From Pseudomonadota bacterium (GTDB taxonomy: Bacteria; Pseudomonadota; Gammaproteobacteria; Burkholderiales; Burkholderiaceae_D), in contig JAEZLB010000021.1 in the NCBI GenBank assembly GCA_023435945.1, positions 1 through 19,363 of the forward strand: DNA of 19,363 bases. The letters are read 5' to 3'. Shown piece by piece: positions 6,835 to 19,363 of the stretch. The notes beneath the pieces are model-generated. The model was given only the letters and a program-made list of their open reading frames with translations, did not search any database and had not been told where the DNA came from. A program made the position numbers and the translations under genes. Each line of letters opens with the position of its first letter. The first letter of the stretch is position 1.

Positions 6835-7932
6835 ATGAAACTCGAAATCGAACCCAACCTGTTTTTGCTTGGTCAGAACGGCAAACATCATTCGCTGGCG
6901 CAGGGCCTGACGCTTTTGCGCCTGATTGAAAAATCAGGCAACCTGCGCGCATCCAGCAAGGACCTGGGCGTTTCGTATCGCATGGCCTGGGAATCGCTGA
7001 TACAGATGGAAAAGCTGTTCGGCGCACCGGTGATAGAAAGAACACCGGGCAAAGGTTCGCAACTGACCCGGTTGGGTCAGAGGTTGGTCCACTTCGACAA
7101 GCTGGTGCATGCACGCATCGGCCCCTTGCTCGATGCGATGGAAGCAGAGTTCGAATCGGAAATCCAGAATATTGTGATGGCGGTGCAGGCTGACCTGAGC
7201 ATTTGCGCCAGCCATGACTTCGCGGTGGAAGTCCTGCACAAACGGCTGAACCGCGAGAACCTGCGCGTCGACCTGAGCTATCGCGGCAGCCTGGAAGCCT
7301 TGATTGCCTTAAGCCGTGGCAATTGCGATATAGCCGGCTTCCATGTCCCCATCGGGCCGCTGGAACATGCCGTATGGAAGCACTTCGAAACCTATCTTTC
7401 GCCCGATAATGCCATCATCAACCTGGCAACACGCCGACAAGGAATCATGGTCGCCCGGGGCAATCCGAAAAACATCTGGGCCCTGAATGATCTCAAGCGC
7501 GCCGACGTGCAATTCGTCAATCGCCAACAAGGCGCAGGTACGCGCATGATCCTGGACCTACTGCTGAAACAGGAAAGCCTGGAAGGACGCGACATCCGCG
7601 GTTATGAGAATATTGAAATGACCCATGCTGCGGTCGGCGCCTACATCATGTGTGGCAAGGCAGATGCGGGATTGGGCGTGGAAGAGGCGGCGCACCAGTT
7701 TGAACTGGACTTCGTGCCGCTGCTGAGTGAGCGTTATTTCCTGACCTGCAAGAAGAACCTGTTGGAGGCAGCTCATTTTGCCCCCCTGTTCAATGCGCTG
7801 AATGCCAAGGACTTCCAGATGGAAGTCCATAGCCTGGCTGGTTACGATGGCATCAGTCTGGGAACCATTACAGAATTCGAAGAGCTTTCCAGCCATTTTG
7901 CCCAGTCCGCAAAATCCCAGGCGAACCAGTAG
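6835..7932 (+). CDS. ModE-type HTH transcriptional regulator with periplasmic-binding-protein-like sensor domain
   Basis: This 365-residue cytoplasmic regulator has two parts. Residues 1 to about 105 form a winged helix of the ModE/LysR kind: the block ASSKDLGVSYRMAWESLIQM (39-58) followed by the wing and LTRLGQRLV closely resembles the DNA-binding domain of the molybdate regulator ModE. From about 115 to 350 is a substrate-binding-protein-like domain (COG1910 type), with the hinge-like segments ATRRQGIMVARGNPKNIW and VNRQQGAGTRM. ModE of E. coli uses Mop domains to sense molybdate; here the sensor is an SBP fold, so the ligand may be molybdate, tungstate or another oxyanion. Neighbouring genes for a molybdopterin protein and a Mop protein support a molybdenum role. 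The ATG at 6835 matches the domain start, but no good ribosome-binding site is close. Confidence 0.85.
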   Translation: MKLEIEPNLFLLGQNGKHHSLAQGLTLLRLIEKSGNLRASSKDLGVSYRMAWESLIQMEKLFGAPVIERTPGKGSQLTRLGQRLVHFDKLVHARIGPLLDAMEAEFESEIQNIVMAVQADLSICASHDFAVEVLHKRLNRENLRVDLSYRGSLEALIALSRGNCDIAGFHVPIGPLEHAVWKHFETYLSPDNAIINLATRRQGIMVARGNPKNIWALNDLKRADVQFVNRQQGAGTRMILDLLLKQESLEGRDIRGYENIEMTHAAVGAYIMCGKADAGLGVEEAAHQFELDFVPLLSERYFLTCKKNLLEAAHFAPLFNALNAKDFQMEVHSLAGYDGISLGTITEFEELSSHFAQSAKSQANQ

Positions 7933-7939
7933 ATGAGCT

Positions 7940-7979
7940 GGCTTCACAAGATTTGCTCCAAAGCGGATATTGTGAAGCC
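7940..7979 (+). terminator. 10-bp perfect hairpin just after the ModE-like gene
   Basis: GGCTTCACAA (7940-7949) and TTGTGAAGCC (7970-7979) form a perfect 10-bp stem with a 20-nt loop, starting 8 bp after the stop codon. No T run follows. It may end or protect the regulator mRNA, or be a leader structure or operator for the downstream molybdopterin gene. Confidence 0.4.
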
Positions 7980-8089
7980 GGAACAGATCAGGCATCGTGC
8001 CGCCTAGCTTGATGCGTGCGGCCTACAGAATCACGACTTTCCTATTTATCTGCAAGCCGGATATTTATCTTTCCAAGGAGCTTCTTGGT

Positions 8090-8538
8090 ATGTGCCTGCC
8101 TATTCCTGCCGGATTCCACATCAAGCCATTTCTCTTTTTCCTGCTTGCACTCGGCCTCATGTACTCGCTCAATTTCCGCAGCAGGATATTTCCGAATCAC
8201 GGCAGATTAATGGAGGAAAGACGAGTACCCAAGTCAATTATCAGGGTGTGCTGCTCAAGGATGTGCTGGCGGCAGCAGACCTGAAAGAGGGGCAGCGCCA
8301 TGATTTTCGCAAGGCGCTCGTCATTGCCCGGGCGCGGGATGGCTACATTGCCTTATTCACGTGGGGAGAATTGTTCAATGCCTCCGCTGGCGAGCACATC
8401 CTCGTTATTACCGGCAAGAACAACGAGCCGTTGCCTGCAAGCGAAGGCCCCTTTGTTCTCAGAGCGCTGGGCGACATCAAGCCGGGGCCACGGCATGTGA
8501 AGTGGTTGGAGCAGGTCGAGGTCCTGCTGATTCGTTGA
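8090..8538 (+). pseudogene. Frameshifted sulfite-oxidase-like molybdopterin-binding protein
   Basis: The downstream part, read in the frame that ends at 8538, is a single oxidoreductase molybdopterin-binding domain (sulfite oxidase-like): YQGVLLKDVLAAADL, then ARDGYIALFTWGELF, then GPFVLRALGDIKPGPRHVKW to the end. The only start with a ribosome-binding site (AAGGAG, 8074-8079) is the ATG at 8090, which is in another frame. It encodes a signal peptide with core KPFLFFLLALGLM. Near 8160-8180 the reading must change frame, and about 20-30 residues expected at the start of the mature domain are missing. The simplest reading is a deletion that broke the gene. Alternatively a 148-residue protein starts at GTG 8092, but its first 30 residues look like non-coding translation. 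The family acts in the periplasm after Sec or Tat export. It lies next to a molybdate-type regulator. Confidence 0.6.
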
Positions 8539-8670
8539 GACCAGCACTTACTTTCACCGACGCTCAGAGCTTGTTCTAGCAGCAATCAATAATTTCAGAG
8601 AGGCTCTTTTTCGCCGTGGAAGCAAGTTGGCGTGTTTCTAAAGATGATCCGCCTCGACTTCCCCGATATA

Positions 8671-8699
8671 AAAAAGCCTGCTGAACTAGCAGGCTTTTT
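8671..8699. terminator. Bidirectional intrinsic terminator
   Basis: AAAAAGCCTGCT (8671-8682), loop GAACT, AGCAGGCTTTTT (8688-8699). This is a perfect 12-bp inverted repeat with an A run on one side and a T run on the other, between the convergent molybdopterin pseudogene and the Mop gene. It is the clearest terminator in the window and should work on both strands. Confidence 0.9.
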
Positions 8700-8717
8700 G
8701 GGTTATGAAACAGCTTC

Positions 8718-9146
8718 TTAAGCTCGCACGCCGATAATCACGTTGGAAACTTTGAACATCGCGGAAGCAGGTGTACCCGTCTTCAACCCTAAATTCTTCA
8801 CACTTTCATTCGTCACAATCGCAGCGACGGAGTCCCCATGCCCGAGGTCCAGTACCACTTCGCTATTGACTGCACCCATCACAACACGCGCAACGGTTCC
8901 CGCCAGGCGATTGCGTGCCGAGAATTTGATGCCTTCTTCATCTGTCAGCAGAATCACCGAGGAGGCCTTCACTAACGCGAAAGCCTCGGAACCCACCTTC
9001 AATCCCAGGTTATCCGTACTTTCACGCGTAACGGTTGCCACCAGTTTCTGGCCCCCGGCGATTTCCATGTCGATTTCATCGTTGACGGCACCTTTCCTGA
9101 TATCGGTAATCCTGCCGGCAAATTGATTACGTGCACTGGTTTTCAT
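8718..9146 (-). CDS. Two-domain Mop (TOBE) molybdate-binding protein, ModG-like
   Basis: This 142-residue protein is a tandem of two Mop/TOBE domains of about 66 residues each, starting at SARNQFAG (4-11) and SARNRLAG (76-83). Each repeats the pattern GAVN(D/S)E, a VT(R/N)ES motif and NLGLK before a final beta strand. Molbindins of this kind (ModG of Azotobacter) assemble as oligomers that store or buffer molybdate or tungstate in the cytoplasm. There is no DNA-binding or ATPase domain, so it is not ModE or ModC. A GAGG about 5 nt before the ATG supports the start. It shares the region with the ModE-type regulator and a broken molybdopterin protein, which fits molybdenum homeostasis. The upstream 370 bp carry no gene, so it seems to be monocistronic. 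Confidence 0.9.
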   Translation of the reverse strand: MKTSARNQFAGRITDIRKGAVNDEIDMEIAGGQKLVATVTRESTDNLGLKVGSEAFALVKASSVILLTDEEGIKFSARNRLAGTVARVVMGAVNSEVVLDLGHGDSVAAIVTNESVKNLGLKTGTPASAMFKVSNVIIGVRA

Positions 9147-9290
9147 ACAACCTCGCTATGGGAAAATTGCTTGAGGTGACTTTTCATGCCTGTTTCCGTA
9201 GGCAATTCTCTCATTAGAAGAAGGGCGCCTGATTTGGTTCGCGTGCCGGATTCATGGCCCTGCATACTTTGGTGAACCATTGAATCTTGT

Positions 9291-9314
9291 GAAGAAGAAG
9301 AAGAAGAAGAAGAA
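9291..9314 (+). repeat. (GAA)8 trinucleotide microsatellite
   Basis: Eight perfect GAA units lie directly upstream of the GGAGG at 9316-9320. Trinucleotide tracts of this length are rare in bacterial intergenic DNA and can vary in copy number by slippage. Confidence 0.9.
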
Positions 9315-9328
9315 CGGAGGCAATCCCC

Positions 9329-9361
9329 ATGATCATGAATGAATTGCCTGCAACAAATTAG
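9329..9361 (+). other. 10-codon ORF with strong ribosome-binding site
   Basis: GGAGG (9316-9320) lies 8 nt before an ATG that opens the short frame MIMNELPATN followed by TAG. It may be the preserved start of a deleted gene or a chance ORF. No longer frame continues it. Confidence 0.3.
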
Positions 9362-9518
9362 AACTGCTCAATGCAATAACCAATCCGGGCAAAAGAGCCA
9401 GAAGGTAGCGACTGATACAGCATCGGGAGAAATCAACGCCATGCTATGGCAGCTGCAGTCCGCCCTTTACTTCTATTAGCAGTCAATGGCTTGCATAGGG
9501 TAGCCAGGGCGCGCTACG

Positions 9519-9941
9519 TTAAGCGCCGCCCATGCCACTGGTCCACAATGCCCTGACCAGCAGCACAACCGCCATCCATAACAGGAACTGTTTAAGCAAC
9601 CTGCGATAAGCCGTTTCCGACAGCCTGCCCGCATACTGGTTGCCGACATACTGCCCGCCCAGTGATGCCAGTACGGCTAGCACCAGCAACACCGGCGAAA
9701 ATACCGTGCTCGACACCTGCGCCATCATGGCGATCTGAATCGCCTGGCCTACACAGAAACACAGATTCAGCACCAGTAATTGCTGGATGCGGGTCAGGCG
9801 CGTCACCGTCCCGTAGATCAGCATAAAGGGAGCCCCTACATTCAATGCCGATTCGGTCATGCCGGAACCGGAACGGGAGCCGCCCGGCACATAACGCGCC
9901 TCAAAAGCATTTACGCAATGTCCTCCGGGTGCTTGTTCCAT
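9519..9941 (-). pseudogene. C-terminal fragment of a TauE/SafE-family (TSUP) membrane transporter
   Basis: From about residue 26 of the 140-residue frame, the segment GSGMTESALNVGAPFMLIYG and the following helices resemble the second half of TauE/SafE-type (TSUP) permeases, which export sulfite, sulfoacetate or other organic anions. Full-length proteins have around 250 residues and two repeats. Here only about 115 homologous residues (three or four helices) remain, and the N-terminal half is absent. The first 25 residues of the frame (MEQAPGGHC...) do not look like the family and have no ribosome-binding site. Just upstream on the same strand another frame carries an unrelated-looking fragment, so the junction near 9900-9945 may be a deletion scar. 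The gene is most likely inactive. An expressed truncated membrane protein cannot be excluded. Confidence 0.6.
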
Positions 9942-10125
9942 TCAGGCCGGTAGCGAACTGGTCCAGCGTGTTTTTGTCAATCACGACGGCTCCGGCATCC
10001 AGCGCCTTCGCGGCACGGGGCGACACGAAAGAAAGAACGCGAGCCCATGATTCGCATGATCCATGTCCATAAAGACAAGCTAAGAGTGAATGAAGAATTT
10101 CAGATATGATCCGCATCATAGACAA
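9942..10125 (-). pseudogene. Unidentified gene fragment abutting the TauE-like remnant
   Basis: In a different minus-strand frame from the exporter remnant there is a coding-like segment, including AAKALDAGAVVIDKNTLDQF, that ends shortly after crossing into the exporter sequence. It has no ribosome-binding site and no family that I can name. It may be the start or middle of a gene fused out of frame to the exporter by a deletion. Confidence 0.25.
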
Positions 10126-10166
10126 CCGCGACTATTCTCTTGCACTTCAGTTTTGACATTGATCTC

Positions 10167-10727
10167 ATGAAAACCTTAGTTCTTCATCTTGCGCTCCTGG
10201 CTCCGCTTGCTGCCTTCGCGCAGTCCAACCCGCATGGCCACCATATGCCTCAGCATTCGCATCAGAATGCGCCACATCATTCCCCGTATGCCACGATGGC
10301 AGATCGTCCCGTTAAGGCCTTGTCTAACGAGCAGATCGCCGCTATACGTGCAGGAAGAGGGATGGGCCTGGCGATGGCTGCCGAGCTCAATGGCTATCCC
10401 GGCCCCTTGCATGTGCTGGAACTTGCCGAGCCATTAAAACTGACTGCTGCACAGAAGCAGCAGACCGAGAAGTTATTTAATGAAATGCTGCGCGAGGCAA
10501 AACAGAGTGGCGAACTGCTGATAGAAAAAGAGACAGAACTCGACCGTCTTTTCCGCGACAAACGCGCAAGCACGCCAGAGGTCGCCAGACTGACGGAACA
10601 GGTCGCACTTGCGCAAGGCAAATTGCGGGCAACGCATCTTCAGTACCATCTGAAGATGATGGACGTACTCACGCCGGAACAGGTGACTCAATATAACCAG
10701 CTTCGCGGTTACACTGCCGGAAATTAA
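10167..10727 (+). CDS. Spy/CpxP-family periplasmic protein (LTxxQ motif, His-rich)
   Basis: This is a 186-residue secreted protein. The signal peptide is residues 1-18 (MKTLVLHLALLAPLAAFA), with cleavage expected after AFA. A His-rich stretch follows at about 23-38 (HGHHMPQHSHQ), then a helical domain with two LTxxQ motifs, LTAAQ at 92-96 and LTPEQ at 168-172. These motifs define the Spy/CpxP family of periplasmic chaperones and metal-stress proteins. Members act on misfolded proteins or sense envelope stress, and some bind metals. The long charged helix at about 100-160 fits the cradle-shaped fold. The frame opens at a TTG at 10140, but the ATG at 10167 starts exactly at the signal peptide and is preferred. 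The His-rich N-terminus suggests metal binding, which is inference. It is convergent with the mocA-like gene, only 17 bp away. Confidence 0.85.
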   Translation: MKTLVLHLALLAPLAAFAQSNPHGHHMPQHSHQNAPHHSPYATMADRPVKALSNEQIAAIRAGRGMGLAMAAELNGYPGPLHVLELAEPLKLTAAQKQQTEKLFNEMLREAKQSGELLIEKETELDRLFRDKRASTPEVARLTEQVALAQGKLRATHLQYHLKMMDVLTPEQVTQYNQLRGYTAGN

Positions 10728-10744
10728 ACGGCACTGATTAAGTG

Positions 10745-11323
10745 CTAGGCCACATGAGAGGGGCGGATATCGACGGGGTGATCGATGTCATGCAAGATCC
10801 CGGCATCCGCCACGGGACACAGCACCATCCTATCGAGATGGTGCTGGATGATGGAACGTGCCCCCTGGTCACCCTTCAAGGCGGCTAAGGCATCGAACCA
10901 GGGACGGGAAAAACCGACCGGATGCCCACGCTGCTCGCGATAAGTTGGTGCCGCCAGAGCGGCCCCGCCAGATAAGGCGTCACGGAGGGCTTGGTAGGTG
11001 CTCGGGAGAATATAGGGCATATCGCCTAACGCAGCGATCCACGCTTCGGCTTGTGCTGCCGCACGCACGCCTGCTGCGAGGCTATGTCCCATGCCACCTC
11101 CGGCAGCAGCACAGACGACCACCTTACAGCCCTCCTGCGTCAATAACTCCGCCAGAAGATCGTCATGAGGTTTTACCACTGCAATGACATGATCACAGCC
11201 CACTTGTAAGCGGCGTGCCGACTGCACGCCCATGGGCGTTCCGTTCGCCAGCGGATGCAACAGCTTGTCGCCGCCAAAACGGCTACCCTTGCCTGCCGCC
11301 AGTAATATGCCGGTGACGCTCAT
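10745..11323 (-). CDS. mocA: MocA-like molybdenum cofactor cytidylyltransferase (NTP-transferase family)
   Basis: This 192-residue protein has the nucleotidyltransferase fold of MocA/MobA-type enzymes. The N-terminal nucleotide-binding loop LLAAGKGSRFGGDK is at residues 7-20, and the metal-binding Asp101 lies in ALGDMPYI. MocA attaches CMP to molybdopterin to give the dinucleotide cofactor used by xanthine-dehydrogenase-family enzymes; MobA does so with GMP. The preference for CTP is inferred from the context, because the gene lies 9 bp downstream of xdhC on the same strand and close to a Mo hydroxylase. Upstream sequence belongs to xdhC, so the two are probably cotranscribed and mocA is second. 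The product would act in the cytoplasm, delivering cofactor to the large subunit encoded at 16243-18627. Confidence 0.85.
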   Translation of the reverse strand: MSVTGILLAAGKGSRFGGDKLLHPLANGTPMGVQSARRLQVGCDHVIAVVKPHDDLLAELLTQEGCKVVVCAAAGGGMGHSLAAGVRAAAQAEAWIAALGDMPYILPSTYQALRDALSGGAALAAPTYREQRGHPVGFSRPWFDALAALKGDQGARSIIQHHLDRMVLCPVADAGILHDIDHPVDIRPSHVA

Positions 11324-11332
11324 TGATATAGG

Positions 11333-12337
11333 TTAAGCGAGCGTACAGCCGGCCTCTGCCGGCACACGCTTTGGCAACAAGCCTTCCTTACTGAACACGC
11401 CATTCTTCACAGCCGTCATCTGCGCAAGTATGGACACCGCGATTTCGGGGGGAGTCTGGCTGCCGATAGATAAACCCACCGGACCATGCAAACGGCCTAT
11501 TTCCTCCTCCGACAAGTCGAAGTGCTCAAGCAAACGTTCACGGCGGCGTTTGCTGTTGGACATCGAGCCCAGGGCGCCGACATAGAATGCCGGTGACTTC
11601 AGTGCCTCCAGCAAGGCCATGTCATCGAGCTTGGGATCATGGGTTAATGCCACCACGGCACTATGCGGGTCCAGATTCATCTCCAGCACCGTATCATCCG
11701 GCATCGTCGATACCAGTCGGGTGCCCGGCACATTCCATTCCGCCGAATACTCGCTGCGCGGATCGCAGACCGTGACCTGATAATCCAGCGCCTGCGCCAT
11801 CTGGGCGAGGTAGGTCGATATCTGCCCGGCACCGATGATCAGCAAACGCCAGGCTGGACCATGCAGGCTGGTCATCGTCTTGCCATCCCAATTCACTGCA
11901 TCACGCGCCGAACCGGGGGTCAGATCACAGCCGTACCTGCCGATGCTCACATGTCGCTGCACCAGCTCGCCGCGCATCACCCGTTCACGCAGGGTTTTCA
12001 TGATGGCCAGATCGGGGGTCGGCTCGATAACCAGCTCCATCGTGCCGCCACAAGGCAAGCCAAAACGATGTGCTTCGTCTTTGGTCACCCCATAGGTCAC
12101 CACGAAAGCGGCGGCAGTGTCAAAGCCGCCTTGCTGGATACGTCGAATCAGATCATCTTCGATACAACCACCCGATACCGACCCCTGCACCAGACCATCG
12201 TCACGCAAGGCCATCCATGACCCCGGCGGACGCGGTGCAGATCCCCATGTACGGGCCACCGTGATTAAAGCACACTGATGACCGGCTTCAGACCAGCGAC
12301 ATATCGCATCAAGAACTTGTTGGTCGGTACTATGCAT
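11333..12337 (-). CDS. xdhC: XdhC-family molybdenum cofactor maturation protein
   Basis: This 334-residue cytoplasmic protein binds molybdenum cofactor, promotes its sulfuration and delivers it to xanthine-dehydrogenase-type enzymes. The N-terminal XdhC/CoxI domain has its two cysteine motifs, SGGCIE (55-60) and GLPCGG (93-98). The C-terminal XdhC Rossmann domain starts with LLIIGAGQIS (about 165-174) and continues through YVGALGSMSNSKRRRERL and the end-of-domain motif IGSQTPPEIAVSILAQM. The length is normal for the two-domain form. The ATG at 12335-12337 is the only suitable start, and the ribosome-binding site is weak. It leads the xdhC-mocA pair. A block of 11-bp direct repeats lies 38 to 73 bp upstream and may regulate it. 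Confidence 0.92.
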   Translation of the reverse strand: MHSTDQQVLDAICRWSEAGHQCALITVARTWGSAPRPPGSWMALRDDGLVQGSVSGGCIEDDLIRRIQQGGFDTAAAFVVTYGVTKDEAHRFGLPCGGTMELVIEPTPDLAIMKTLRERVMRGELVQRHVSIGRYGCDLTPGSARDAVNWDGKTMTSLHGPAWRLLIIGAGQISTYLAQMAQALDYQVTVCDPRSEYSAEWNVPGTRLVSTMPDDTVLEMNLDPHSAVVALTHDPKLDDMALLEALKSPAFYVGALGSMSNSKRRRERLLEHFDLSEEEIGRLHGPVGLSIGSQTPPEIAVSILAQMTAVKNGVFSKEGLLPKRVPAEAGCTLA

Positions 12338-12493: not shown

Positions 12494-13603
12494 TCATTCA
12501 GCCTCGATGGCGAGGGACTGAAACGGCAGGCGATATACGCCGCGTCCGATCAAGCCTACCTGCGCGTCACGATCCAGGATGGCCAGATTCACCATTGGTG
12601 ACGCATCCTTGCTTTTAACGCCTTCGATGCTGACTGTGCCGGTACTGGCATCCAGCACCTGATTGCGCTGCTCAACAAGATCTGCCGGCAAGAAATTTTT
12701 CCAGTCAGCTGACAAACCAGGCGCGTACATTAATGCCTGCGCCCCCAGACCACTGAAATCGATCACCGCGCTGTCGCCGATGGCATTTAAGGCAGGCGTC
12801 TCTTCATGACCGGGGAAACGGCTGCCTTGTGGCGGAGTAGCAGTCACCAGGTGCCAGCCATCCGTTCCACGCAGACGATAACCAAAACATTGGCTATTAC
12901 CGCCTGCCGCGACGATCTGTCCATGTTCTTTCAAGTGCACGGCACTCGCTGCCATTAACAAAGGCAGTACAAATCCCGGGTTGGACAGGATAAGGTGCTT
13001 GTCCTGTACTGGCAGTTGCTCAAGCTGCGTGACTAATGCGGCATTCGCTTTTGCAGTCAATGCATGACATTCCTCGCCGCCGCAAAGCGCGTGGGCAATC
13101 AAAGGAGCAATCGCCACCGGGTGCTGTTTCAACACGGGCCTTAACGCATGGATTCCCAGGTGTGAAATCAAGCGTAGTTGTGCTCTTGCCGATGCTGCCG
13201 GTTTGCCAAAACGTAAAGCAGGTGGACCACTTTCCACCAGGGGCGCATAACACCGCACCTCATCACGACTCACACAGAACATGGGCATGGAAGGCGACAC
13301 CACTTGTGCCAGCGGGGTTACAACCCCATGCTCCTGTGCGGGCAAAAGGGTGACGGCCTGCGCATCAAGGAGTTGTGCAGCATGTTCGGCATCATCGGCC
13401 CAGGCCTCATACAGAATCGCTTCAATCGCCGCTGCGCGTATGGGCTTCGGCAACTCATCCGTCAGCGGCGGCCCCGCATGCAGCAGCGTTTTCTCTGGCA
13501 GATCGGGACAGGCGTGGGCACGCGTTATGACGTCCGTCCATACGATGCCCTCGAATCTGCTTGCAATGGCCTTGATACTGTCGTCTTGAATGGTGGTACT
13601 CAT
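12494..13603 (-). CDS. DUF1116-family protein (AllG/YlbE-like)
   Basis: This 369-residue protein matches the DUF1116 family. Landmarks are LLHAGPPL (40-47), a conserved YEAWA segment, SPSMPMF (103-109), the GDSAVIDFSGLGAQALMYAPG region and the C-terminal VGLIGRGVYRLP. E. coli AllG (YlbE) of this family works with AllF (FdrA) and AllH as oxamate carbamoyltransferase in allantoin breakdown. Neither partner is visible in this window, so whether this protein has that activity is unknown. It is somewhat shorter than E. coli AllG (about 420 residues), with many family positions changed; for example the motif that reads GPM in relatives is replaced here. It lies between the amidohydrolase and xdhC on the same strand with gaps of about 150 bp each side. 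This places it in the Mo-hydroxylase cluster and suggests a carbamoyl or ureide step, which is inference. Confidence 0.8.
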   Translation of the reverse strand: MSTTIQDDSIKAIASRFEGIVWTDVITRAHACPDLPEKTLLHAGPPLTDELPKPIRAAAIEAILYEAWADDAEHAAQLLDAQAVTLLPAQEHGVVTPLAQVVSPSMPMFCVSRDEVRCYAPLVESGPPALRFGKPAASARAQLRLISHLGIHALRPVLKQHPVAIAPLIAHALCGGEECHALTAKANAALVTQLEQLPVQDKHLILSNPGFVLPLLMAASAVHLKEHGQIVAAGGNSQCFGYRLRGTDGWHLVTATPPQGSRFPGHEETPALNAIGDSAVIDFSGLGAQALMYAPGLSADWKNFLPADLVEQRNQVLDASTGTVSIEGVKSKDASPMVNLAILDRDAQVGLIGRGVYRLPFQSLAIEAE

Positions 13604-13754: not shown

Positions 13755-15017
13755 TTATGCCGCTTTGGGTATCGGCAGAATCGGCGCCTTGGCATCGAAA
13801 CGCTCGCCGTTGCGGTAACAGAACGCAGGTTTCAGCATCCGCTCGGTGATCACTTCCGTACCCTCGTTGTCATGCAGCTTCCAGCGACCCGTCAAATCAT
13901 CCAACACACTGATATCTGCGACGCCACCGACTTTCAACAAGCCGATTTCATCTTCCATGCGTGCCAACCGGGCGGCATTGGACGTTACCATTGCCACCAC
14001 GTGATTCAGGGGAATCCCCAACGCCAGCATGCTGGTCATCGCTGAAACCAGGCTGAAACGTTCATTACCCTTGAAGATATGCGTGCTTTCGTCAGGGTGC
14101 CAGTCCGGAGTGCCTGGAGGAGGAGGAACGATGGTGTTATAACCATGCATGTCTGCGCCCAGCGTGTCGGGAATCACGCCTGCGTCCAGGACGATACGTG
14201 CGGTGTTGAAGCTGAAGTGGGAACCGTGACCAACATCAATCTTCAATCCGCGGTCGATGGCTTCCTTCACCATGGGGTGAACGCTGCCGTTCACTTCCAC
14301 GAAGCCGCCGGGATGGCGACTGAAGGGGTGTGCCAGTATATCGCCCGGCTTCAACATATCGACAACCTGATTGAAGATGCTGTCAGGATTGACGCCTTTT
14401 CCTCCCACTTCCGGTTTTGGCCACAGTTGGCCAAAGTGGATGTAGACCGGCAGCTCGGCTTCCCTGCCGATCTGCGCGGCGATCTTCATGACTTCCAGGC
14501 CCCAACGCTCAAAACCGCCGATCTCGGCATGCGCCTTCAGGCCACGAACGATGTCAGGATTCTTTTTCGCTGCAGTGACAGTTGCCTTCACATCCAGGCA
14601 TTCCGGGCGATACAGCTCCGGGTAATAGTGTCCTTCCAGACCACCAACCAGATAAGCCGACAGGTAAGACAGCACACGGGTTTTTGATTGCTCTGCAATG
14701 TACTTGCGAAAGCCCGGCAAGGTGATGCAGCTCGCACCGCCCTGATCGATCATGGTGGTCACGCCAGAGTACACGCCGCACATATCGGCATTCAAGCCGA
14801 AGCGGCCGGTAACGCCCTGATAAATATGGCCGTGGGTATCAATCAGGCCCGGCAACACCAGTTTGCCGCTGCAATCCACTACATCGACGCCATCCGCTGC
14901 ATGAATGTTCGGCTCGATAGCCTTGATAGTTACGCCTTCGATGAGCACATCGAATTTGCCATCACGATGATGGGCCGGATCGATAACACGACCGCCTTTA
15001 AGAAGTACCTGATTCAT
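13755..15017 (-). CDS. COG3964-type amidohydrolase/deacetylase metallohydrolase
   Basis: This 420-residue member of the amidohydrolase superfamily hydrolyses amide or ester bonds with a binuclear metal centre. The metal ligands are visible: HGH (His62, His64) after LPGLIDT, a likely carboxylated lysine Lys161 (RGLKAHAE), His194 (VYIHFG), His230 (ILAHPF) and Asp289 (LGADMHG). The C-terminus returns to the beta-sandwich that flanks the barrel. The sequence fits COG3964, whose members have often been annotated as dihydroorotases; a characterised Agrobacterium member hydrolyses N- or O-acetylated small acids instead. The true substrate here is unknown. Divergent from marR, it has three operator-like palindromes in its 224-bp upstream region. 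The ATG at 15015-15017 has a weak GAAAG ribosome-binding site. The likely job is hydrolysis of an intermediate in the Mo-hydroxylase pathway. Confidence 0.9.
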   Translation of the reverse strand: MNQVLLKGGRVIDPAHHRDGKFDVLIEGVTIKAIEPNIHAADGVDVVDCSGKLVLPGLIDTHGHIYQGVTGRFGLNADMCGVYSGVTTMIDQGGASCITLPGFRKYIAEQSKTRVLSYLSAYLVGGLEGHYYPELYRPECLDVKATVTAAKKNPDIVRGLKAHAEIGGFERWGLEVMKIAAQIGREAELPVYIHFGQLWPKPEVGGKGVNPDSIFNQVVDMLKPGDILAHPFSRHPGGFVEVNGSVHPMVKEAIDRGLKIDVGHGSHFSFNTARIVLDAGVIPDTLGADMHGYNTIVPPPPGTPDWHPDESTHIFKGNERFSLVSAMTSMLALGIPLNHVVAMVTSNAARLARMEDEIGLLKVGGVADISVLDDLTGRWKLHDNEGTEVITERMLKPAFCYRNGERFDAKAPILPIPKAA

Positions 15018-15042
15018 ATCGATTCTTTCAATGAAGGTTAAT

Positions 15043-15058
15043 ATGTGGTGTACCGCAT
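15043..15058. promoter_or_regulatory. MarR-type operator, copy 1
   Basis: ATGTGGTGTACCGCAT, a near-perfect palindrome (two mismatches to the consensus ATGTGGTGCACCACAT). It lies 26 bp upstream of the amidohydrolase ATG, in the divergent region with marR. Confidence 0.75.
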
Positions 15059-15080
15059 TTGTACGGCGTTGCCGTTAGAC

Positions 15081-15096
15081 ATGTGGTGCACCGCAT
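15081..15096. promoter_or_regulatory. MarR-type operator, copy 2
   Basis: ATGTGGTGCACCGCAT, one base from the perfect palindrome. It lies exactly 38 bp from copy 1, start to start, in the middle of the divergent region. Confidence 0.75.
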
Positions 15097-15118
15097 ATTC
15101 TATGCCAGCTTTTTATTT

Positions 15119-15134
15119 ATGTGGTGCACCACAT
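15119..15134. promoter_or_regulatory. MarR-type operator, copy 3 (perfect palindrome)
   Basis: ATGTGGTGCACCACAT, a perfect 16-bp palindrome and the best copy. It lies 38 bp from copy 2 and 108 bp before the marR ATG. The equal 38-bp spacing of the three copies suggests a designed array rather than chance. Confidence 0.8.
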
Positions 15135-15241
15135 TGGTGATTGTTAAAAGTGTTGCAGAAATGGGCCGCTATCCCAGCGTTGTTAACGTATACTCCACCG
15201 GCACGAGATGGTTACCCGGACATTTTCCTCCCCGCATTCTC

Positions 15242-15757
15242 ATGAACATGATTGAAAAATCCGCCCTTGCCCACCTGACGAAAGAACTGGATGCATTCAA
15301 GGCGCGCTCAATGTTGCTGACGCGCCCCGGCTTTCTGATCCGCCGCCTGCATCAGCTGCACAGCGCGCTCTTCATGGAAGAAACAGAGAGGTTCAATATC
15401 ACGCCCGTGCAATACAGCCTGCTGTCTGCGCTGGATGAGTACGGCGAACTCGACCAGAATTCGCTCTCCCATCATATCGGGCTGGAGCGGACCAGCGTGG
15501 CGGAAGTCCTGCCACGGCTCGAACAGCGCGAGCTGATCGTGCGTCATCAGTCCGACCGTGACAAGCGCGTTAAATACGTAAAACTGACGACCAAGGGACG
15601 TACGCTGGTCCGCAAGATGCGTCCGGGCGCCCAGCGCGCGCATGACCGCACCGTCGAAAGCCTCTCCGAAGAAGAGCGCATGCTTTTCATTCTTCTCATG
15701 GCCCGCATCGTCGAAGCAGAAATCACCGATCGCGTGCCGCCACTGAAGGTACGTTAG
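15242..15757 (+). CDS. MarR-family transcriptional regulator
   Basis: This 171-residue protein is a winged-helix regulator of the MarR family. It has an N-terminal dimerisation helix (about 1-50) and a recognition region around SLSHHIGLERTSVAEVLPRL (74-93). The wing ends with the family signature SDRDKRVKYVKLT (104-116), and a C-terminal dimerisation helix contains LSEEERMLFILLMARIVEAE. MarR proteins usually repress neighbouring genes and release DNA on binding a small phenolic or heterocyclic ligand, which here may be the pathway substrate. The frame is open to ATG 15059, but the ATG at 15242 starts at the family N-terminus and is preferred, although no clear ribosome-binding site precedes it. 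It is divergent from the amidohydrolase, with three palindromic operators between them, and 485 bp upstream of the Mo hydroxylase. Autoregulation is likely. Confidence 0.88.
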   Translation: MNMIEKSALAHLTKELDAFKARSMLLTRPGFLIRRLHQLHSALFMEETERFNITPVQYSLLSALDEYGELDQNSLSHHIGLERTSVAEVLPRLEQRELIVRHQSDRDKRVKYVKLTTKGRTLVRKMRPGAQRAHDRTVESLSEEERMLFILLMARIVEAEITDRVPPLKVR

Positions 15758-15899
15758 CACCAGGGACGCGCTCCCTTAATGCACAGCGCACCAAATACAT
15801 GCACCAATGCCCCAAACCGATGCAGGAATAAAGTTTTCTTGCTCGCCTCCGCCCATCGCCTCCTCACTAAAGGGACGAGTCCGCTTTGAACGCGTAAAA

Positions 15900-15915
15900 A
15901 TGTGCTGTACCACAT
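15900..15915. promoter_or_regulatory. MarR-type operator variant upstream of the Mo hydroxylase
   Basis: ATGTGCTGTACCACAT matches the operator consensus at 14 of 16 positions. It lies 343 bp before the large-subunit ATG, downstream of marR. It fits control of the hydroxylase transcript by the same regulator. Confidence 0.6.
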
Positions 15916-16171
15916 AACGTTCAGTCGACATTTTCCCAATTAAATCAATCTCTTATAAACAAAACAATCTGACATGGCAGTGACCATGGCACGGTCATTG
16001 CTAGTTGTTGCGTACAGGAATCCAATTCATTTTGGGCAGGCCTTCGGCAAACAGCACGCAAGGACTGCACCGCTAAGACGCTTATTAAGTTCAATAGCAG
16101 GGCATAGCGATAGGTAGCTTAAGAAAACGCTGCCAGCCAAATGAATTTGCGAACAAGTTATTTTTGCATAA

Positions 16172-16187
16172 ACGTGGTATGCCACCT
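16172..16187. promoter_or_regulatory. Weaker MarR-type operator variant just upstream of the Mo hydroxylase
   Basis: ACGTGGTATGCCACCT keeps the inner GTGGT-N2-GCCAC dyad but the outer bases differ. It is 20 bp before the 12-codon ORF and 55 bp before the large-subunit ATG, a position suited to block a promoter or RNA polymerase. Confidence 0.45.
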
Positions 16188-16207
16188 AATTGATCAGGAA
16201 AGACAGC

Positions 16208-16246
16208 ATGAGTCAAGTGAATGTCAACCTCAAGGGAAAAGCATGA
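16208..16246 (+). other. 12-codon ORF, possible scar of a [2Fe-2S] small-subunit gene or leader peptide
   Basis: AGGA (16196-16199) is well placed for the ATG at 16208, which opens MSQVNVNLKGKA and then stops at TGA. This stop overlaps the large-subunit start as ATGA. The peptide resembles the N-terminus of the iron-sulfur small subunits of Mo hydroxylases, which often begin in the style M-x-x-V-x-x-x-L-x-V-N-G-K. It may be what is left of that gene after a clean deletion, or a leader that couples translation to the large subunit. Confidence 0.4.
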
Positions 16247-18627
16247 GTGACATGGTTAAACCTGAGGCAAGCGCAAGCGATCAAGGTATTGGCCGTGAAG
16301 TGCCGCGCAAGGAAGATCAGCGCCTGCTGCGCGGACAAGGGAAGTATGTCGGCGATATGCGTATGCCCGACATGCTGGAAGTCGCCTTTGTGCGCTCGCC
16401 TGTCGCGCACGCGCGTATCGCAGGCATAGAGAAGCCAGCAGGCATGGAGCATCTGGTATACACCATGCAGGATATGGCGGGTGTAAAGCCCATCGTCGCC
16501 GCTTCCGCGCTGCCGGGGTTCAAGGTTTCCGCCCAATATCCTCTGGCACTGGACAAGGTACGTCACGTTGGCGAAACCGTCGCCGTGTGCATCGCACCGG
16601 ATCGTGCGCGTGCTGAAGATATCGCCAACAGCGTATTCGTCGATTATCAGGATCTGCCTGTGATGGCAGACATGTACGGCACGCTGGACAGCGAAACACG
16701 TGTGCATGACGAGTGGAACAACAACGTCTTCGCTGAAACCAATGTCGATCGGCGTGTGCAAGAGACGAATGAAGAAGTCGTTCGTGTCAGCCGCCAGCTG
16801 CGCATGGCACGTCAGTGCATGGCGCCGATGGAAGGTCGTGCTGTGCTGTGCTGGTGGGATACCCGCACCGATCAGCTGATCATGTACACCGCAGCACAGG
16901 TTCCTCATATCAACCGCACCGGCCTGGCTGAATGCCTGGGCTTAGATGAAGGCCAGGTGCGCGTGATTTCGCCGGACGTCGGTGGCGGCTTCGGCTACAA
17001 GGGAATTTTGCTGCCGGAAGAAATCTGCTGCGCATGGTTGTCCATGAAACTGCAGCGTCCCATCCGCTGGCTGGAAGACCGCCGCGAGCAGTTGAGCGCG
17101 AATGCCAACTGCCGCGAACACGGTTATGACATCACCGTTGCCGTGACACGCGAGGGCCGCCTGGCCGGTATCGAATGTGATGCTGTCGTGGACTCCGGTG
17201 CTTACTCTTCCTATCCCTTCAGTGCCTGTCTCGAAGCCGCACAAATCGGATCGATCCTGCCCGGCCCTTATGTGATGGACAGCTTTGTTTGCCGCACCCG
17301 CTCCGCAGCAACCAACAAACCGCCCATTCTTCCCTACCGTGGCGTAGCCCGTACCGGTGTGTGCTTCGCACTGGAGACCATGCTGGACAGGGCGGCACGC
17401 GAAATTGGCGTGGAGCCGTATGAGCTGCGTGCAAACAGCCTGGTGCCTGCAGCAGCGATGCCGTTCAATAACATCACCAACAAACTGTTCGATTCCGGCG
17501 ATTACACCACCTGCATGATGAAAGCCGTTGAAGCGCTGGACTGGAAAACCTGGCGTGCACGCCAACGCGAGCGTCATGCAGGCGGCAAGCGCGTCCAGAA
17601 ACGTCTGGGCCTGGGTTTGTCTGTGTTCTGCGAACAAGGCGCACACGGCACGTCGGTGTATCACGGCTGGGGCATTCCCATGGTACCCGGCTACGAACAA
17701 TGCACCGCTCGCTTCACGCCCGACGGGATACTGGAACTTCGCATCGGCGTGCACTCACATGGCCAGGGCCTGGAAACCTCGATGGCACAGGTTGCACACA
17801 CCGTACTCGGCATCGATGTCGCGAAAGTGCGTGTCGTGCATGGCGACACCGGCATGACACCTTATTCCACCGGCACCTGGGGCTCGCGTTGCGCCGTCAT
17901 GGCAGGCGGTGCAGTCGGCACAGCCTGCGAACAATTGGCTGTGCGCGTGAAAGAAATCGGTGCCTACCTGCTGAACACCGATGCATCGCAGCTCGTGATC
18001 GAAAAAGGTAATGTCGGCATTCCCGGCGGCGACAAGGTATCGCTCGCTGAAGTAGCTTACACCTGGTACCGCGCACCGCAGAAATTGCCGGTCGGCTCGG
18101 TCAACCCGGGCGGTCTGGAAGTGGTCGGCGGCTACAAGATGATTCCCGATGGCGGCACCTTCAGCTATGCCTGCCATGCTTGCGTGGTTGAAGTGGACAC
18201 CGCAACCGGCCATGTTGAATTCCTGGATTACGCCATCTGCGAAGACGGTGGCGTGCTGCTGAATCCGAAGATCGTCGAAGGTCAGTTGTTTGGCGGTCTG
18301 GCGCAAGGCATCGGCACTGCCCTCTACGAAGAAATGCCGTTTGACAGTGAAGGCCAGCCGCTGGCTTCTACCCTGCAAGATTATTTGCTGCCCGGCGCAG
18401 GCGAAATGCCGCCGCTGAAACTGGAGCACATGGAAACCCCGAGCCCCAACAGCAAATACGGTCAGAAAGGCATAGGCGAAGGCGGTGCGATTGCGCCACC
18501 TGCGGCCATCATCAATGCCATCAACGATGCGCTGCATGAACTCGGCGCAGAGATCACGGAATGTCCTGCCAACCCACGTCGCGTACTGGAAGCACTGGAT
18601 AAGGCAGCCAAGGAGGTAAGTGCATGA
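16243..18627 (+). CDS. Xanthine-dehydrogenase-family molybdopterin-binding (large) subunit
   Basis: This 794-residue protein is the catalytic subunit of a molybdenum hydroxylase. It has an alpha/beta hammerhead domain at about 20-125, followed by the two Moco-binding domains. Visible motifs are DVGGGFGYKG (about 245-254), PYRGVAR (364-370), the pterin-binding GQGLET (507-512) and the catalytic Glu746 in KGIGEGG. It lacks the AYXCSFR active-site loop of true CO dehydrogenase, so it hydroxylates an organic substrate, probably a heterocycle or aldehyde. The frame opens at 16141, but the ATG at 16243 (ribosome-binding site AGGGA) begins just before the hammerhead and is preferred. It overlaps the medium-subunit gene as ATGA. 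No small subunit precedes it. MarR-type operators lie upstream. MocA-like and XdhC proteins from this window would mature it. Confidence 0.93.
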   Translation: MSDMVKPEASASDQGIGREVPRKEDQRLLRGQGKYVGDMRMPDMLEVAFVRSPVAHARIAGIEKPAGMEHLVYTMQDMAGVKPIVAASALPGFKVSAQYPLALDKVRHVGETVAVCIAPDRARAEDIANSVFVDYQDLPVMADMYGTLDSETRVHDEWNNNVFAETNVDRRVQETNEEVVRVSRQLRMARQCMAPMEGRAVLCWWDTRTDQLIMYTAAQVPHINRTGLAECLGLDEGQVRVISPDVGGGFGYKGILLPEEICCAWLSMKLQRPIRWLEDRREQLSANANCREHGYDITVAVTREGRLAGIECDAVVDSGAYSSYPFSACLEAAQIGSILPGPYVMDSFVCRTRSAATNKPPILPYRGVARTGVCFALETMLDRAAREIGVEPYELRANSLVPAAAMPFNNITNKLFDSGDYTTCMMKAVEALDWKTWRARQRERHAGGKRVQKRLGLGLSVFCEQGAHGTSVYHGWGIPMVPGYEQCTARFTPDGILELRIGVHSHGQGLETSMAQVAHTVLGIDVAKVRVVHGDTGMTPYSTGTWGSRCAVMAGGAVGTACEQLAVRVKEIGAYLLNTDASQLVIEKGNVGIPGGDKVSLAEVAYTWYRAPQKLPVGSVNPGGLEVVGGYKMIPDGGTFSYACHACVVEVDTATGHVEFLDYAICEDGGVLLNPKIVEGQLFGGLAQGIGTALYEEMPFDSEGQPLASTLQDYLLPGAGEMPPLKLEHMETPSPNSKYGQKGIGEGGAIAPPAAIINAINDALHELGAEITECPANPRRVLEALDKAAKEVSA

Positions 18628-19363
18628 AACCCGCAGCCTATCGTTTATTAAAAGCGGATTCGATTGAACAAGGCACTGCCCTGCTGGCTGAAGGTGGCTG
18701 GGGCAGCAAACCTGTAGCCGGCGGCCAATCGCTCGGAGCGATGCTGAACCTGCGCCTGGCCCAACCTGACACTTTGCTGGATCTGGATGCCTTCGCTGAA
18801 CTGCGTGAAACCGTCGAACTGCCTGATGCAGTGCGTTTTGGCGCAATGACTACCCACGCCGCCATCGAAGACCAGCGCGTTCCTGATCCCAGCCGTGGCC
18901 TGATGCCTTTCGTTGCGCGTGGCATTGCTTATCGCGCCGTACGCAATCGCGGCACCCTCGGCGGCAGCCTGTGCCATGCCGATCCCGCTGCCGACTGGGT
19001 GAGCTGCATGCCCCTTCTGGGTGCCACGCTACACGTGGTCGGCCCCGCCGGCAAACGCGACATCGCCGCTCGTAACTTCATGGTCTCCGCTTACGAATGC
19101 CAGCTCGCCGAAGGCGAAATCCTGGTTGCCGTCACCGTCCCCAAACAATCCGCAACCATGCGCTGGTCGTATCGCAAGTTGTGCCGCAAGACCGGCGAAC
19201 TGTCGCATGCGATGGCATCCGGCATGGTCGACCCGCAAACCGGTGCCGAACGCGTGGTGATCGGTGCGCTGGACGGCGCGCCTTACGTTGCCGAAGGTGC
19301 GGGTTTGCTGAAATCGCTGCTGAAAAAAGAAGCACGACTGAGCCTGCTGGATCAGGCCGCCCC
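18624..19363 (+). CDS. FAD-binding medium subunit of Mo hydroxylase (3' end outside window)
   Basis: The reading frame is open to the right edge: 246 codons are visible, of an expected total of about 280-290. It encodes the FAD-binding subunit that passes electrons from the iron-sulfur centres to an acceptor. The PCMH-type FAD motifs are AGGQSL (32-37) and RNRGTLGGSLCHADPAADW (107-125). The ATG overlaps the large-subunit stop as ATGA, with a strong AAGGAGG ribosome-binding site at 18610-18616, so the two are translationally coupled. The order large-medium suggests that an iron-sulfur small subunit could follow beyond the window, since none precedes. The C-terminal CO-dehydrogenase-flavoprotein-like domain has barely begun. 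Confidence 0.93.
   Translation, partial: MKPAAYRLLKADSIEQGTALLAEGGWGSKPVAGGQSLGAMLNLRLAQPDTLLDLDAFAELRETVELPDAVRFGAMTTHAAIEDQRVPDPSRGLMPFVARGIAYRAVRNRGTLGGSLCHADPAADWVSCMPLLGATLHVVGPAGKRDIAARNFMVSAYECQLAEGEILVAVTVPKQSATMRWSYRKLCRKTGELSHAMASGMVDPQTGAERVVIGALDGAPYVAEGAGLLKSLLKKEARLSLLDQAA

Follow-up and report, generated by a model that had tools for sequence, protein, structure and literature searches.

This locus raises the question of why a 16-base palindrome occurs five times around a marR gene, and why the first three copies stand at an even distance from one another. The window, that is, the whole stretch of 19,363 nucleotides analyzed here, carries in order an amidohydrolase gene on the minus strand, marR on the plus strand and a Mo-hydroxylase operon on the plus strand. 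The proposed target genes are the amidohydrolase (13755..15017), of the PRK09237 type according to domain and family profile matches, and the Mo-hydroxylase large subunit (16243..18627), identified by profile and structure-sequence matches, whose closest solved structure by sequence is quinoline 2-oxidoreductase. The Mo-hydroxylase FAD subunit (18624..19361, plus strand) extends past the window edge. The marR gene (15242..15757) encodes a protein of 171 residues, the proposed operator-binding protein, assigned by homologue alignment and by a match of 46.9 bits to the winged-helix MarR domain PF01047, whose cut-off is 24.6. On comparative genomic grounds, we consider it likely that the five palindromes are MarR operators placed on two sigma54 (RpoN) promoters, where transcription would need both sigma54 activation and relief of MarR repression.

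Five palindromes beside a marR gene

The initial annotation had placed five palindromes in the window, the first three exactly 38 bp apart, three of them between the amidohydrolase and marR and two before the Mo-hydroxylase, and had seen no further copy. A word search and a matrix scan bore out each of these positions and both 38-bp intervals. The predicted operators are operator 1 (ATGTGGTGTACCGCAT, 15043..15058), operator 2 (ATGTGGTGCACCGCAT, 15081..15096), operator 3 (ATGTGGTGCACCACAT, 15119..15134), which is a perfect palindrome, operator 4 (ATGTGCTGTACCACAT, 15900..15915) and operator 5 (ACGTGGTATGCCACCT, 16172..16187). With up to three mismatches to ATGTGGTGCACCACAT, four sites were found in the window against 0.11 expected, the sites at 15043, 15081, 15119 and 15900 carrying two, one, zero and two mismatches respectively, and none of 200 shuffled windows reached four. 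Operator 5 has more than three mismatches to ATGTGGTGCACCACAT and shares with it the core GTGG-N4-CCAC. A symmetrised matrix, seeded partly with the window's own five sites, returned exactly five places above 14 bits, namely operators 1-5.

Operator 3 opens with an ATG in frame with marR (window 15119-15242), so that gene callers return a protein of 212 residues (P0001), while the marR start at 15242 agrees with most aligned homologues. The N-terminus of another protein, P0009, reads MWCI and resembles a translated operator, as in P0001.

The occurrence of the palindrome beside related regulators was then evaluated. The search for MarR relatives, limited to one genome per species, returned 104 places, 80 of which were kept as loci, and 31 sites, taken from nine loci and the window, served to derive a symmetric matrix. 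The 73 loci outside the seed comprised 62 with a closer MarR and 11 with a distant MarR, and a locus was counted if its best-scoring site was no more than 450 bp upstream of the amidohydrolase, marR or the Mo-hydroxylase. The best sites fell beside these cluster genes in 48 of the 62 loci with a closer MarR (2.0 expected) and in none of the 11 with a distant MarR (0.4 expected). Against these 48 hits over all 73 held-out loci, 200 permuted symmetric matrices averaged 4.2 and reached 30 at most, although some of the loci are closely related to those of the seed and all share descent, so that the counts overstate independence. In five loci (L022, L024, L025, L028 and L032, at 8567-8611) a strong operator, ATGTGGTGCACCACGT, stands directly after marR and before another gene.

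Co-occurrence was assessed in a sample of 392 genomes of the Oxalicibacterium family, ten of which carry the MarR at E<=1e-40. The exact word ATGTGGTRYRCCACAT was present in six of these ten genomes versus five of the 382 others (Fisher 1.9e-8), and its reversed control in one of the 392. Five of these six MarR-bearing genomes have it at the marR cluster; in the sixth (G005) it is on another contig, away from marR. The four MarR-bearing genomes lacking the word have MarRs 59-62% identical to that of the window. The five genomes with one exact word each and no MarR at 1e-40 (G120, G145, G166, G188 and G287) perhaps reflect chance or another owner. A loose core word, GTGGTRYRCCRC, was also tried and discarded, as it did not exceed its reversed control overall in nine genomes; only the full 16-mer or the composite word described below is therefore informative. 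With two mismatches allowed, most of the listed places for GTGGTRYRCCRC were scattered through the genomes.

The recognition helix follows the same division. Residues E82, V86 and E88 are conserved in 99-100% of 68 near MarRs, and all 10 far MarRs differ there, in a comparison that omitted L048 and L069 of the 80 loci.

Predicted sigma54 promoters and the -12 element

The scoring weights for sigma54 elements and the consensus itself (GG at -24, GC at -12, 10 bp between them, TGGCAC...TTGC) are assumed here. On this basis both promoters of the window look sigma54-dependent. The Mo-hydroxylase operon is preceded by a -24/-12 element, TGGCACGGTCATTGCT (15987..16002, plus strand), which scored 20.1 of 20.8 and has the GG and GC dinucleotides, the spacing and the flanks of a sigma54 promoter. 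It is conserved in all six genomes of the close comparison, consisting of the window and five relatives (L001, L002, L003, L084 and L086), and scored 18.2 of 20.8 in each relative. Besides the operators, TGGCA[CT]GGTC[AG]TTGCT before the Mo-hydroxylase and ATTCTATGC[CT]A between operators 2 and 3 were among the best conserved pieces of the six-genome alignment. Between operators 2 and 3 lies the sigma54-like -24/-12 element of the amidohydrolase, TGGCATAGAATATGCG (15092..15107, minus strand), in which the GG-N10-GC dinucleotides and their spacing are present, the total score is middling (10.4 of 20.8) and ATGC stands in place of TTGC. The same score was obtained in four relatives, that is, in five of the six genomes with the window included; in L084 the element is lost (TAGCAT...ATGAGG) and both operators are retained.

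The register of these elements extends to more distant loci. A sigma54 score of at least 11 was found upstream of the amidohydrolase on the coding strand in 57 of 76 loci versus 11 on the other strand, three of the 76 being repeats of genomes already counted, and averages over five shuffles stayed below 11 at every locus. Upstream of the Mo-hydroxylase, a score of at least 13 occurred in 12 of 57 loci and in none on the other strand; in many of the remaining loci the Mo-hydroxylase follows the amidohydrolase on one strand and may lack its own promoter.

The predicted start sites, at about 15081 (minus strand) and 16013 (plus strand), place the operators with respect to the two promoters. Operator 1 would lie at +24 to +39 of the amidohydrolase transcript, operator 2 at -15 to +1 and operator 3 at -53 to -38 of its promoter, while operator 4 would occupy -113 to -98 of the Mo-hydroxylase promoter and operator 5 positions +160 to +175, in the leader. 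A leader frame of 12 codons (window 16208-16246) overlaps the Mo-hydroxylase gene start (ATGA); similar frames of 16 codons were seen by eye in L001 and L003, and none in L002.

On the minus strand, the first bases of operator 2, ATGC, would serve as the -12 element of the predicted amidohydrolase promoter. This would explain why operator 2 is not a perfect palindrome, its odd G belonging to the GC at -12. Both the predicted sigma54 promoters and this sharing of bases had been overlooked in the initial annotation. The register was counted in 73 non-repeated loci, 62 of which have an amidohydrolase sigma54 score of at least 9. In 35 of these 62 loci an offset of exactly 11 bases separates the start of the 16-base sigma54 word from that of the operator, whose first four bases thereby coincide with the -12 element (TTGC, ATGC or GTGC). 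Some operator is present in 57 of the 62; in the 27 where none lies on the -12 box, 22 have it elsewhere and five have none. Since TGC is common to the operator and the -12 element, the -24 half was also scored alone, with operators picked blind to sigma54. The gene-proximal operator had GGCA[CT] at an offset of -10 in 34 of 44 loci, and in 18 of 26 after removal of near-identical loci, every other offset giving at most one. The window counts as a miss here because its gene-proximal copy is operator 1.

The composite sigma54-operator word GGCAYNNNNNWTGCGGTRYRCCAC was searched in the genus of L007 (Paraburkholderia humisilvae) and was found in 25 of 144 genomes, the reversed control in none. 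With the L007 MarR as query, a MarR at E<=1e-55 was found in 25 of 144 genomes, the identical set (Fisher 1.6e-28, uncorrected for kinship). The word lies within 450 bp of marR in 24 of the 25 genomes and about 6 kb away in G418. A second composite was seen in each of G415 and G418, the pair in G418 being divergent and 418 bp apart.

Predicted upstream operators, IHF sites and further targets

The Mo-hydroxylase promoter shows a different arrangement, in which the sigma54 box, an IHF site and the upstream operator keep constant distances from one another in all six close genomes. Operator 4 begins at -87 from the sigma54 word in each of them, and a match to WATCAANNNNTTR, which we take to be the IHF consensus, lies between the two (AATCAATCTCTTA, 15943..15955, plus strand) at offset -44. 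Among the 11 Mo-hydroxylase promoters scored, seven carry the consensus, including all six close genomes, and all seven have it at -44 from the sigma54 word (0.18 expected). Six of 62 amidohydrolase promoters have it at -43, -44 or -53 (0.36 expected), and it is missing from the other 56, among them the amidohydrolase promoters of the window and its five relatives.

A candidate Mo-hydroxylase enhancer is given by two NtrC-like dyads 21 bp apart (15787-15803 and 15808-15824, plus strand), which are weak, imperfect matches within a partly conserved block. The dyad sought was the NtrC pattern TGCACC-N5-GGTGCA at 100-200 bp upstream. Across loci, 16 of 60 have their best dyad beginning 141-160 bp upstream of the sigma54 word, versus 3.7 expected, and the mean best score is 8.17 versus 7.37 after shuffling, the matches being imperfect in both counts. 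A gene for an enhancer-binding protein occurs in three of the 80 loci (L016, L075 and L077) and none was found in the window, which points to a global activator.

Two further targets were detected in relatives, where a sigma54 box TGGCACG[AG]TAACTGCT lies between paired operators; both first came from the two-mismatch list of GTGGTRYRCCRC. At the promoter of an NMT1-type ABC transporter (L081 and L094) the operators are 141 and 146 bp apart, one of those in L094 being weak (14.9 bits), and at a porin promoter (L082) they lie 140 bp apart around the box. The upstream operator of these three uptake promoters stands at -79 or -80 from the sigma54 word, and none of the three has the IHF consensus. 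In the amidohydrolase promoters of L004, L013, L029 and L056 an upstream operator, weak in some, is found at -86 or -87. The small regulon that had been proposed for the palindrome is supported by conservation and co-occurrence, with the amidohydrolase, the Mo-hydroxylase and, in relatives, the transporter and the porin as members.

The Mo-hydroxylase/amidohydrolase pathway occurs in Oxalicibacterium, Herminiimonas, Paraburkholderia, Pseudomonas and others. No relative was found among the viral contigs searched, and of 228 plasmid records none exceeded 60% identity. In the window an AllG-like protein (12494-13603; PF06545, oxamate carbamoyltransferase subunit family; no NCBIfam match) adjoins the amidohydrolase, and about 1.6 kb of extra DNA lies between the two genes in L001 and L002, with an amidase in L002, and is missing from the window. 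The region 6835-12337 is a molybdenum-related cluster with a ModE-like regulator having LysR-type and PBP domains, a TOBE protein, a molybdopterin oxidoreductase domain, and MobA-like and XdhC-like proteins.

Alternative explanations and proposed mechanism

The even 38-bp spacing had been read as a sign of cooperative binding on one face of the helix or of looping, with MarR dimers filling three evenly spaced operators and protein-protein contacts setting the distance. The interval between operators 2 and 3 is indeed exact in all five close relatives, hence in six of six genomes, and operator 1 repeats the period. However, 38 bp corresponds to 3.62 helical turns and other lineages have spacings of about 51, 90, 102, 115 or 140 bp, so that helical phasing is not a likely reason for the distance. 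Operator 1 has no counterpart in any of the five close relatives, and operators 2 and 3 bracket the sigma54-like -24/-12 core of the amidohydrolase, which fills their interval and would account for its length. We therefore regard this explanation as unlikely. The relatives have a single promoter operator, whose downstream flank recurs at operator 1 and whose promoter flank recurs at operator 2, which suggests that operator 1 may have arisen by duplication of the promoter operator; in our own check for a tandem duplication, the 22-base spacers matched at five to six places only. Both sites before the Mo-hydroxylase are kept in five of five close relatives at a spacing of 280-304 bp, compared with 272 bp in the window, and a conserved IHF site next to operator 4 would be compatible with looping at that promoter.

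The promoters themselves might instead be of the sigma70 type, the sigma54 likeness being due to chance and the operators simply covering -35 and -10 elements. A minus-strand TAGAAT between operators 2 and 3, the weak score of the window amidohydrolase element and its loss in L084 would fit such an arrangement, but no sigma70 promoter-like pair was detected in 14990-16260, where 1.3 were expected by chance. The sigma54 register is moreover widespread among the loci, and the Mo-hydroxylase box reaches 20.1 of 20.8 with an IHF site beside it, which makes sigma70 promoters quite improbable. As for the owner of the palindrome, its core TGGT-N2-ACCA resembles operators of the GntR/FadR type, and marR could be a bystander. 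Yet a crude search with an assumed consensus found no GntR-type gene in the L001, L002 and L003 loci, although the query picked up many MarR genes and missed the LysR-type domain of the ModE-like gene of the window, and a Pfam scan of window proteins returned no GntR-type protein. The operator tracks marR genome by genome and was not found beside MarRs with a differing recognition helix, and a GntR-type owner is very improbable. The held-out matrix test, the co-occurrence among genomes, the recognition helix and the failure to find a GntR-type gene make MarR the likely binder. The repeated palindrome is thus very probably the operator of the adjacent MarR-type regulator, as had first been suggested.

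The sites, their conservation, the sigma54/IHF register and the co-occurrence with marR are read directly from the genomes; MarR binding and repression, and the nature of the activator and the ligand, are what we infer from them. In the reading preferred here, of MarR operators on sigma54 promoters, a MarR dimer on -15 to +1 of the amidohydrolase promoter and another upstream of -24 should exclude sigma54-RNA polymerase. The Mo-hydroxylase promoter has its upstream operator at about -105, flanked by the candidate enhancer and the conserved IHF bend, and a second one in the leader; MarR on these sites should block contact between enhancer and polymerase and/or elongation, and the leader operator may serve as a roadblock or as a loop partner. 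The first key to transcription would be an enhancer-binding protein, probably NtrC, responding to nitrogen limitation, and the second the release of MarR by a ligand of the pathway, probably a (hetero)aromatic carboxylate. We propose only tentatively, with slightly less than even confidence, that this represents a widespread two-key class, in which a MarR operator and the sigma54 -12 element occupy the same bases, for which repressor and sigma factor compete, and the operator at a fixed position near -105 in sister promoters, beside IHF, blocks the enhancer.

The usual picture of MarR repressors has them acting at -35/-10 promoters, and sigma54 promoters are commonly regarded as activator-controlled. 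AtzR, a catabolic regulator of the LysR and not the MarR family, represses its own sigma54-dependent atzR promoter, which needs NtrC; we know of no fusion of its operator to the -12 box. PcaV (4fht), the best PDB sequence match of the window MarR, is distant (59.7 bits) and has the MarR fold and the same Arg/His region; to our knowledge no sigma54 setting has been described for it. Assignment of the window MarR as an HpaR equivalog (NCBIfam TIGR02337) was rejected, as it scored 56.4 bits against a curated cut-off of 121.2. In the case of NadR, a MarR-family protein of Neisseria meningitidis, one operator at PnadA overlaps the core promoter and start site and another lies upstream, IHF binds between operators, and 4-hydroxyphenylacetate releases the repressor (PMC2791445). 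The window resembles PnadA in its promoter-overlapping and upstream operators, which are known there with IHF between them; unlike PnadA, which has a -10 region (PMC2791445), it has predicted sigma54 -24/-12 promoters of catabolic genes, with an operator sharing the -12 bases.

The Bordetella MarR-family protein BpsR (PDB 6pco/6pcp) represses the nic cluster for heterocycle degradation and is released by 6-hydroxynicotinate, which involves residues Tyr15, His23, Arg26 and His32; its DNA recognition sequence is called unclear by the authors, and the part of the article available makes no link to sigma54 (PMC6837509). In the alignment, R34 and H40 of the window MarR correspond to BpsR Arg26 and His32, making an aromatic or heteroaromatic acid the likely ligand. 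His23 is replaced by Phe31 and Tyr15 falls outside the alignment, and the window MarR was not classed as a BpsR-type nicotinate regulator, given the replacement of His23. The literature searched, which was largely open-access, contained no description of a MarR operator placed on a sigma54 promoter. This combination is what appears new, MarR operators on and upstream of a promoter with IHF between them being known already for NadR.

If true, a MarR operator doubling as a -12 box would represent substrate-specific repression laid over global sigma54 control. These catabolic genes appear to be set up so that expression takes both a global activator and the proper nutrient molecule, and the sites described here offer a testable regulon for an uncharacterised Mo-hydroxylase/amidohydrolase pathway.
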